Source of the DNA: Pseudodesulfovibrio profundus
GTDB taxonomy: Bacteria > Desulfobacterota > Desulfovibrionia > Desulfovibrionales > Desulfovibrionaceae
Assembly (NCBI RefSeq): GCF_900217235.1
Contig: NZ_LT907975.1
Span: 310,001 to 374,000, forward strand
Length of the DNA: 64,000 bases
Direction of reading: 5' to 3'
Shown in pieces: positions 42,147-44,339 of the stretch (position 1 is its first letter; each line of letters opens with the position of its first letter). The notes under the pieces are model-generated. The model saw only the letters and a program-made list of their open reading frames with translations. It had not been told where the DNA came from and ran no database searches. Both the position numbers and the translations under genes were made by a program.

Positions 42147-43028
42147 CTAAATGACTTTGGCTTCTTTCAGCACAGCTTCTAGCTTCGGTAGATTCTCTTG
42201 CTGAAGTGGAACGATAGGCAGCCTGAATTCCGCTTCCTTGAAAAGCCCCATCATCTTAAGTGATGTTTTGACTGGGATCGGGTTGGTTTCCATGAACATG
42301 GCACGGTTCACCGGTGCCATAAGAAGGCTAAGATCAAGCGCCTTTTCATGATCCTTCTCAAAGAAAGCCTTACACATTCCACTCATGGCAGCAGGCATAA
42401 TGTTCGAAATGACGGATATCACACCGCGTCCACCAACGGCCAAGAGGGGAAGTACGGTGAAGTCATCGCCTGAGAGGAGATTAAAATCCTTTCCACACTG
42501 CTCTATTACCTGTGCGGCCTGATTCAGGTCTCCTGTTGCCTCTTTCACAGCAATAGCTTCGGGTACTGCGTCCACGATCATTTTCAAATGCTCAGGAAGC
42601 AGATTCAAGCCAGTTCTACCAGGAACATTGTATATGACAAAGGGCATGGAAACTTCTTTGGCAATAGCCTTGAAGTGTTCCACCAGTCCACCTGGGGTAG
42701 GCTTGTTGTAATAAGGAGTAATCTGCAAGGCTGCGTCTGCTCCGGCATCCTTGGCGAGCTTTGTTAACTGGATGGCTTCTTTGGTCGAGTTTGAACCGGC
42801 TCCGGCTACAACAGGGACTCGGCCTTTAGCTTGATCGACGCAAATGGATATGATGCGTCCTTGCTCTTCATGATTCATTGTTGCGGCTTCGCCTGTGGTG
42901 CCACAAGGGACAAGGCCGTCAATGCCTTGTTCTATCTGCCATTCAATGAATGCGCGGTAGGCTTCTTCATCAATTTCACCATTCGTAAATGGTGTGGAAA
43001 GAGCGGTAAATGCTCCTCGAAATTCCAT
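42147..43028 (-). CDS. dapA: 4-hydroxy-tetrahydrodipicolinate synthase
   Basis: The 293-residue protein starts at ATG 43028 with AGGAGG seven bases before; an ATG two codons earlier is too close to it. DapA signatures are GAFTALSTPF, the GTTGEAATMNHEEQ loop, YNKPTPGGLVEHF and YNVPGRTG with the active Tyr, and the Schiff-base Lys in AVKEATGDL. It condenses pyruvate and aspartate semialdehyde in lysine and peptidoglycan synthesis. It begins 43 bp after the selenoprotein gene stop and is probably in the same transcript. Confidence 0.96.
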   Translation of the reverse strand: MEFRGAFTALSTPFTNGEIDEEAYRAFIEWQIEQGIDGLVPCGTTGEAATMNHEEQGRIISICVDQAKGRVPVVAGAGSNSTKEAIQLTKLAKDAGADAALQITPYYNKPTPGGLVEHFKAIAKEVSMPFVIYNVPGRTGLNLLPEHLKMIVDAVPEAIAVKEATGDLNQAAQVIEQCGKDFNLLSGDDFTVLPLLAVGGRGVISVISNIMPAAMSGMCKAFFEKDHEKALDLSLLMAPVNRAMFMETNPIPVKTSLKMMGLFKEAEFRLPIVPLQQENLPKLEAVLKEAKVI

Positions 43029-43071
43029 TTTCATCCTCCTGGATGTCTTGCATGTTTGCAGTGAGTAGCCT

Positions 43072-43932
43072 TTACTTGAAAAAGTTAGCTACTTCCGGGT
43101 TGTCATAATATTTGTCACTTAAGCCGATTGATTGAGAGATGATTTTCTCAGGTTCAGACCATGCAAAAGGTTTAGTACGGTCGGGCCAAGCAAGCAGTTT
43201 GACCTCGATCACCGTTTTCCCCTTATTGTATGTCCTGTACCAAATACATCTACCATCGGCCAGGATACGCCCTGTGACGCCGGATCCATTACCACTGCCT
43301 AACAGTATGTCCGGAATATGTTCCGGATTTCTAGCCAAAAACTCTCGTTCAACTTTCCAACCCCAATCTGTGATACCTATAAGCAAGTTCACGCTTTGCT
43401 TATGTTTTTTGATTTGATCTGAAAGAGAGTTTAGAGTGGCATCAGTTGGGATTTGGTCGATTTCATCAAGTGATGGAAACCGCAAAAAACCGATTTTTTC
43501 GCCTGTCTCTAAAGTGATCAGTGTGAATGGTTCTTTCTCCGCCGTTTTTCGGGACGAATCTGGAACACAGTTTGATTCTTCAAAAAAAGCAGCTTCTTCT
43601 TTTGATAACAAACCTACATCATAGCCAATGAAGTCATAGGCTTTTACTAAACCCTTCAGATCAGAAAGGGGCAGGGATGTGCTCTCCGGACTCAGGTACT
43701 CGTATCCGCCAGAGACCTTGATTGTCGGAGCCGTAGAACGATGCACATCAAAAAAATACGTGGCCCGCCGGGCCACACCTCCAATGGTTTTACCACCTCA
43801 TGAAGGACATGGTCGCACCGTGCCAAACGTATTTGCCGAATAGAGAATACTCAACAACGGTTGCTCTGCATGCGCAGCACTACTACACAGGAGAAGTGCC
43901 CCACAAAGCAGGCAATATGTTAACCAATGCAT
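43072..43932 (-). CDS. UshA-like secreted selenoprotein (in-frame TGA read as selenocysteine)
   Basis: The frame runs from ATG 43932, one base after the HU stop, to 43072: 286 residues with one TGA (43798-43800) at residue 45. A signal peptide (about 1-22, LLCGALLLCSSAAHA) comes first; LSILYSANTFGTVRPC is like the first strand of UshA-type metallophosphatases but without the usual metal-binding DxH. C42-P-S-U45 is a redox CxxU motif, followed by GGKTIGGVARRATYFFDVHR. Codon use and frame continue smoothly past the TGA, and a SECIS-like hairpin follows. From memory, a UshA-like (seleno)protein family is known in sulfate reducers; this was not checked. It is probably periplasmic, function unknown. 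If TGA is stop, a GTG at 43776 would give a truncated product with no signal peptide. Confidence 0.8.
43760..43800 (-). promoter_or_regulatory. SECIS-like hairpin after the selenocysteine TGA
   Basis: TGA is at 43798-43800. After 21 nt a perfect 7-bp stem GTGGCCC / GGGCCAC (43760-43776) carries a three-base loop GGC, beginning with the G expected in bacterial SECIS loops. The TGA-to-loop distance of 28 nt is within the known bacterial range. It would recruit SelB with tRNA-Sec. Confidence 0.7.
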
Positions 43933-44208
43933 CTATTCGTTGATAAATTCTTTCAGCTCTTTGCCTGGGCGGAAGAAGGGGAGCTTTTTGGGTCTGACCT
44001 GAACAACGCTTCCGGTCTTGGGATTACGGCCGGTGTATCCGTCGTATTCTTTGATCTTGAAACTACCGAAACCGCGAATTTCAACACGATCGCCGCGGAG
44101 GAGTGCTTCTTTAACGGAATCAACGAAAGCTCCAACAACATTGGTTGCTTCGTCAACATGCATTTTTTTCTCTTCGGACAGAGCCTTAATCAGTTCGCTC
44201 TTGTTCAT
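43933..44208 (-). CDS. HU-family DNA-binding protein
   Basis: The 91-residue protein starts at 44208 after GGGGGA. RGDRVEIRGFGSFKIKEYDG and TGRNPKTGSVVQVRPKKLPF are the beta-arm signature, with the proline wedge in RNPKTG. It bends and compacts DNA. HU and IHF-beta-like proteins cannot be separated by eye; a partner alpha subunit is not here. Its stop TAG is followed directly by the selenoprotein ATG. The 110-bp upstream gap can hold a promoter. Confidence 0.93.
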   Translation of the reverse strand: MNKSELIKALSEEKKMHVDEATNVVGAFVDSVKEALLRGDRVEIRGFGSFKIKEYDGYTGRNPKTGSVVQVRPKKLPFFRPGKELKEFINE

Positions 44209-44339
44209 GATGTCCCCCTGAGACATTGAGTTTTCTGCGTTCGTGAACCACGGCTGTCAACATCGATACGTAAAAGTATCATAAATTCTCACTAACTATG
44301 CCGAAATTTGGCTCTTTTCGTCAACCCCTTATTTACTTT

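Follow-up and report, generated by a model that had tools for sequence, protein, structure and literature searches.

Background

Can an in-frame TGA in a bacterial gene be read as selenocysteine (Sec), and what would such a residue do on a phosphatase-type fold? The question is raised by a gene in a 64,000-nucleotide stretch of Pseudodesulfovibrio profundus DNA (contig NZ_LT907975.1, positions 310,001 to 374,000), hereafter called the window, to which all coordinates without a locus label refer. An original prediction, made from the sequence alone, had proposed here a secreted UshA-like selenoprotein with a CxxU motif and a hairpin resembling a selenocysteine insertion sequence (SECIS). This finding itself is right: the gene is a new member of an already catalogued selenoprotein family, UshA-like (seleno)protein family 2 (NF049981). 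The gene itself is of modest interest; the question of how a phosphatase fold came to house Sec is of greater interest.

According to the excerpts available, NF049981 is listed as CxxU and 'GenBank annotated' [PMC13188914], and a family with the motif CxU was given as 'COG0737, UshA-like' in the 2008 Global Ocean Sampling (GOS) study [PMC2398784] and also stands in tables of PMC9312934 and PMC13188914. Within the excerpts returned by our literature search the accession NF049981 occurs only as a table row (PMC13188914). No functional study of the family was found in this search, which covered few subscription journals, and co-mentions of SoxB and selenocysteine were judged incidental from titles and the openings of abstracts.

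The selenocysteine codon and its gene family

The features of the gene are as follows.

43072..43932, minus strand: gene of UshA-like selenoprotein family 2, 286 residues when the TGA is translated as Sec (match to NF049981)
43867..43932, minus strand: signal peptide, approximately residues 1-22 (hydrophobic stretch; cleavage at AHA-E set by eye)
43798..43809, minus strand: motif C42-P-S-U45, residues 42-45 (column conservation in 89 homologue domains)
43798..43800, minus strand: in-frame TGA, the Sec codon (TGA/Cys column in homologues)
43760..43776, minus strand: bacterial SECIS (bSECIS)-type hairpin of 7 bp with loop GGC at 43769-43767 (folding and family comparison)

The predicted coordinates of gene and TGA were correct, and the strand, which had been left unstated, is the minus strand. 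The frame runs from an ATG at 43932 through the TGA (43800-43798) to a final TAA ending at 43072, and the Sec-read protein comprises, in this order, the signal peptide, the strand LLSILYSANTFG, CPSU and GGKTIGGVARRATYFF. It matches NF049981 with 304.2 bits (cut-off 140) over profile positions 1-261 of 262, i.e. at full length, and the CxxU or CxxC that defines the family after the first strand is present as C42-P-S-U45, the predicted CxxU motif. The expectation that automatic annotation would lose this part of the protein holds for plain open reading frame (ORF) calling, which under the standard code yields 234 aa from a GTG at 43776, and fails where the NCBIfam model NF049981 is used.

Of 99 genomes sampled from the bacterial family to which the window organism belongs, 71 have a match to NF049981, 63 of them with a copy holding one internal TGA and 8 with TGA-free copies only, so that family 2 is a widespread periplasmic selenoprotein with conserved synteny. 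The comparisons below rest on 80 family rows, namely 78 of the 81 above-cut-off matches in this sample (G027, G033 and G010:C2 were left out) and the named records L051 and L052, and on nine distant rows chosen by hand from a longer list of a phylum sample, with doubly fetched copies counted once. The copy at G010:C2:107100-107877, the second of its genome, consists of two end-to-end matches and is probably broken. For an alignment of 88 rows the window protein stands for its own copy and L011 is omitted.

Position 45 is TGA or Cys in all 89 homologue domains (72 Sec, 17 Cys), and 88 of them have Cys at position 42. The homologues do not begin after the TGA; the region before it, with CxxC or CxxU, is included in them. 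Apart from position 45, the only invariant columns of the 88-row alignment are three glycines, with C42 nearly invariant. Secretion is likewise supported, as a hydrophobic, signal-peptide-like stretch precedes the Sec/Cys codon in 76 of the 80 family members (the start codons of the relatives not being fixed); the stretch is lipobox-like in two. In a quick tree the window copy falls into one starred group with rows of its own genus and two named Desulfovibrionaceae records, and at least six changes between Sec and Cys are required, four of them forced by starred branches. Four genomes of genus g25 (L017, L018, L021, L028) carry two copies in tandem, one with Cys and one with Sec.

Genes for Sec incorporation were looked for as a possible refutation, and selA, selB, selC and selD are all present in the window genome: selB scores above its cut-off, tRNA-Sec (selC) scores 78.4 bits with Rfam and is assigned the anticodon TCA by ARAGORN, and selD (L040) holds an in-frame TGA of its own, so that judging by its sequence it is probably a selenoprotein too. 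Among the 81 genomes that are at least 90% complete, selA occurs in all 55 with the Sec form, and of the six with the Cys form only, three lack it and one further has a fragment match only. Since 75 of these 81 genomes have selA regardless, it is the genomes with only the Cys form that are informative. In five less complete genomes the Sec form is present and no selA match was found.

The hairpin downstream of the codon

The predicted SECIS-like element, a 7-bp stem with a GGC loop 28 nt on from the TGA, is present as described. Its stem is perfect (GUGGCCC-GGC-GGGCCAC), and the 50 nt starting at the TGA, which include a second small hairpin, fold at -17.3 kcal/mol. Published constraints on bSECIS elements, as given in the excerpt available, are a loop of 3-9 nt with a G in the first two positions, a stem of 4-16 bp, a spacing of 16-37 nt and a minimum free energy of -7.5 or below [PMC13188914]; the loop of 3 nt, stem of 7 bp, spacing of 28 nt and the energy found here lie within them. 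The folding energy alone is unexceptional (z -1.47; 17 of 200 shuffles equally stable), and an Rfam scan of the locus gave two chance-level matches, none to a Sec element.

The stem overlies a conserved ARRA motif, whose codons may pair with each other for protein reasons alone, and for this reason the hairpin was compared with the Cys homologues. In these comparisons, chosen after the sequences had been seen, the word GCCCGG[C/A]GGG[C/T] occurs at most 45 nt from the codon in 56 of 64 Sec members versus 1 of 16 Cys members (Fisher p 1e-9), and the seven stem pairs are paired in 404 of 448 cells in Sec members and in 49 of 84 in the 12 Cys members in register, four Cys rows with indels having been left out. 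Sliding the partner in the Sec set lowers the paired fraction to between 0.33 and 0.49, and the stem pair 24-36 has changed on both sides. Similarly, 59/64 Sec and 6/16 Cys members use CGG or AGG at codon 56; among all Arg codons in the genes compared these two make up 42%. The hairpin thus goes beyond chance, because the TGA/Cys codon is kept in every homologue domain and the hairpin word tracks Sec, not Cys.

Fold and lost metal site

A confident structure model and a profile (HMMER) alignment to 2z1a show the mature protein to be a single domain of the metallophosphoesterase type, comparable to the N-terminal one in SoxB and 5'-nucleotidases. Pfam gives no match to the window protein; over the 88 relatives it finds Metallophos in one and one unrelated family in another. 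In a structural search SoxB was the top match at 13% identity, its lead over the next 5'-nucleotidase being less than 1 Z and hence a tie. The SoxB profile TIGR04486 (cut-off 550) does not match the window protein up to E 1, and it matches 10 of the 88 relatives (E up to 1e-5).

The two-metal site of UshA and the 5'-nucleotidases is formed by the motifs DxH, GD, GNHE, H and GHxH. That DxH is missing from the first strand had been predicted, and the loss goes further: as read by hand from the alignment to 2z1a, none of the eight metal-site residues is kept (the positions hold N34, F36, Y77, K111, E112, D189, G214 and G216), and an alignment-free search found the motifs absent. Across the family D.H occurs anywhere in 19/80 members, GN[HD] in 5/80 and GGH in 2/80, and D.H within the first strand in 1/89 (L097); in distant rows the alignment may be shifted at columns 111 and 112, and L115 has a related motif nearby. 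Because residues and motifs of the metal site are absent, phosphatase activity was set aside.

Relatives with and without hemes

A second family, NF041198 (UshA-like (seleno)protein, PCGU, CxU), matches the window protein with 38.3 bits, below its cut-off of 275. On two of its chains PF13435 detects a c554-like domain with four CxxCH motifs (E 5.3e-17 and 2.8e-12).

L124:7211-8665 and L119:9912-11351: UshA-like selenoproteins of the CxU type whose C-terminal part is a c554-like domain bearing four CxxCH motifs

Of the best-scoring 30 NF041198 loci, a choice that favours the heme-bearing form, 26 were classified in a tally by hand: 14 are CxU with four hemes and 4 are CxU without hemes (one of them with Cys); the other 6 CxxU and 2 SGU loci have no hemes. 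The loci L141, L143, L157 and L163 could not be classified by patterns, and L149, L150 and L162 were assigned from one of two analyses only. In the SGU relatives L156 and L158 the Sec is kept, with Ser in place of the partner Cys. At two loci of distant genomes (L122:7397-8539 and L123:7703-8950) the UshA-like ORF is overlapped at its end by an ORF called as a CCG/4Fe-4S dicluster protein. The paralogues L120 and L126 have SBF-type transporters, phosphonate-type binding proteins or a methyltransferase in their vicinity, and a link to arsenic is possible.

Proposed function and alternatives

We infer that the protein is probably a Sec-containing periplasmic member of NF049981 that works on a metal-free phosphoesterase fold as an oxidoreductase or electron-transfer partner. 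The original prediction of a redox protein on a phosphatase fold thus stands as regards the fold, and its redox part is argued here from the conservation of position 45 and C42 and from the relatives fused to a four-heme c554-like domain. SelB and tRNA-Sec, aided by the hairpin, would insert Sec at UGA 45. By sequence order C42 and U45 come after the first strand, a short way past the site of the missing DxH, and this thiol/selenol pair may cycle between a reduced and a selenenyl-sulfide state. The lost metal site together with the Cys/Sec pair suggests an oxidoreductase or electron-transfer partner rather than a phosphatase, and since CxU relatives are fused to a tetraheme c554-like cytochrome, the pair could exchange electrons with c-type cytochromes of the periplasm. 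The CxxU branch, including the window protein, would use a separate redox partner; a first guess at the substrate would be a protein disulfide or some sulfur compound.

A more specific scenario can be offered tentatively. Ancestors nearer to SoxB and the 5'-nucleotidases would have lost their metal ligands and gained CxU or CxxU just after the old DxH, turning the fold into a metal-free Sec/Cys redox enzyme that acts on a protein disulfide or on a compound of sulfur or selenium; one branch would then carry the tetraheme cytochrome on its own chain, and the branch of the window protein would stand alone in the periplasm.

Several observations weigh against a redox role or its premises. No redox partner was seen next to the gene, only housekeeping neighbours at the family loci examined; the window protein has no heme domain, and the 262 positions of the NF049981 profile leave no room for one. 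In L077, the sole such row of the 89, Glu replaces C42 and the TGA is kept, and a few members retain one or two metal-site residues. As to the hairpin, its exact word is missing in 8 of the 64 Sec members, and synonymous-codon shuffles separate Sec (mean z -0.72) from Cys (-0.25) with p 0.17 only. In a phylogeny-aware comparison of Sec and hairpin, 2.6 of four independent pairs agree on average, none is opposite and 1.4 show no difference, which is not significant, as four pairs of such related rows cannot be.

Among other explanations, the Cys and Sec might serve to bind a metal or metalloid or to hand it on, the protein being a carrier or sensor on a dead phosphatase fold. CxxC and CxxU pairs can chelate soft metals, and SBF-type transporters and a methyltransferase occur close to some distant paralogues; these paralogues, however, belong to other subfamilies, the NF049981 loci examined have housekeeping neighbours, and the heme fusions favour electron transfer, so that we regard this function as unlikely. 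A persistent hydrolase or transferase, in which Sec attacks a persulfide or thiosulfonate as the nucleophile of a metal-free, SoxB-like reaction, would suit SoxB as top structural match and the SoxB profile matches among relatives, yet the low identity, the near tie with the next 5'-nucleotidase, the missing profile match of the window protein itself and the lost metal site make it distinctly improbable. That the TGA is a true stop, through a broken gene or sequencing error, and the product the 234-aa ORF of standard-code calling is hardly credible in view of the same-codon TGA in homologues of many genera, the signal peptide and first strand upstream of it and the Sec machinery.

If the tentative scenario of a fold turned into a metal-free Sec/Cys redox enzyme is true, the family would represent a selenoenzyme class without a thioredoxin-like fold. 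Its function is directly testable, given a Sec/Cys pair that replaces the metal site, Sec and Cys copies within one genus and heme-fused relatives.

Genomic neighbourhood

Two genes flank the selenoprotein gene.

43933..44226, minus strand: HU/IHF-type DNA-binding protein gene (IHF and HU models, every match below cut-off)
42147..43034, minus strand: dapA, the next downstream gene and syntenic neighbour (TIGR00674, above cut-off)

The stop codon of the HU/IHF-type gene immediately abuts the ATG of the selenoprotein gene, and the kept gene order is corC-lnt-prfB-GGDEF-minD-HU-UshA-like gene-dapA. The HU gene lies upstream at 20 of 20 chosen family loci across genera and at L051, L052 and L135, and is not upstream at the two paralogue loci L134 and L136; dapA was found at 16 of the 20. 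This conserved neighbourhood shows vertical keeping of the family 2 gene and is not a pointer to its function.

Comparison with known systems

To NF049981 the window protein belongs as a member, with the CxxU in common and no difference seen. With NF041198 it shares a TGA in the same loop, the GG-x-A-R-R motif and the UshA-type domain; it differs in having CxxU instead of CxU and in lacking the C-terminal cytochrome part (approximately profile positions 346-519). The 5'-nucleotidases (2z1a, CD73, UshA) have the same metallophosphoesterase-type fold, whereas the window protein is devoid of their metal site, of their second domain and of a Pfam match. The thiosulfohydrolase SoxB, finally, to whose N-terminal domain the window protein is likened, is separated from it by the same loss of metal site and second domain and by the low sequence identity.
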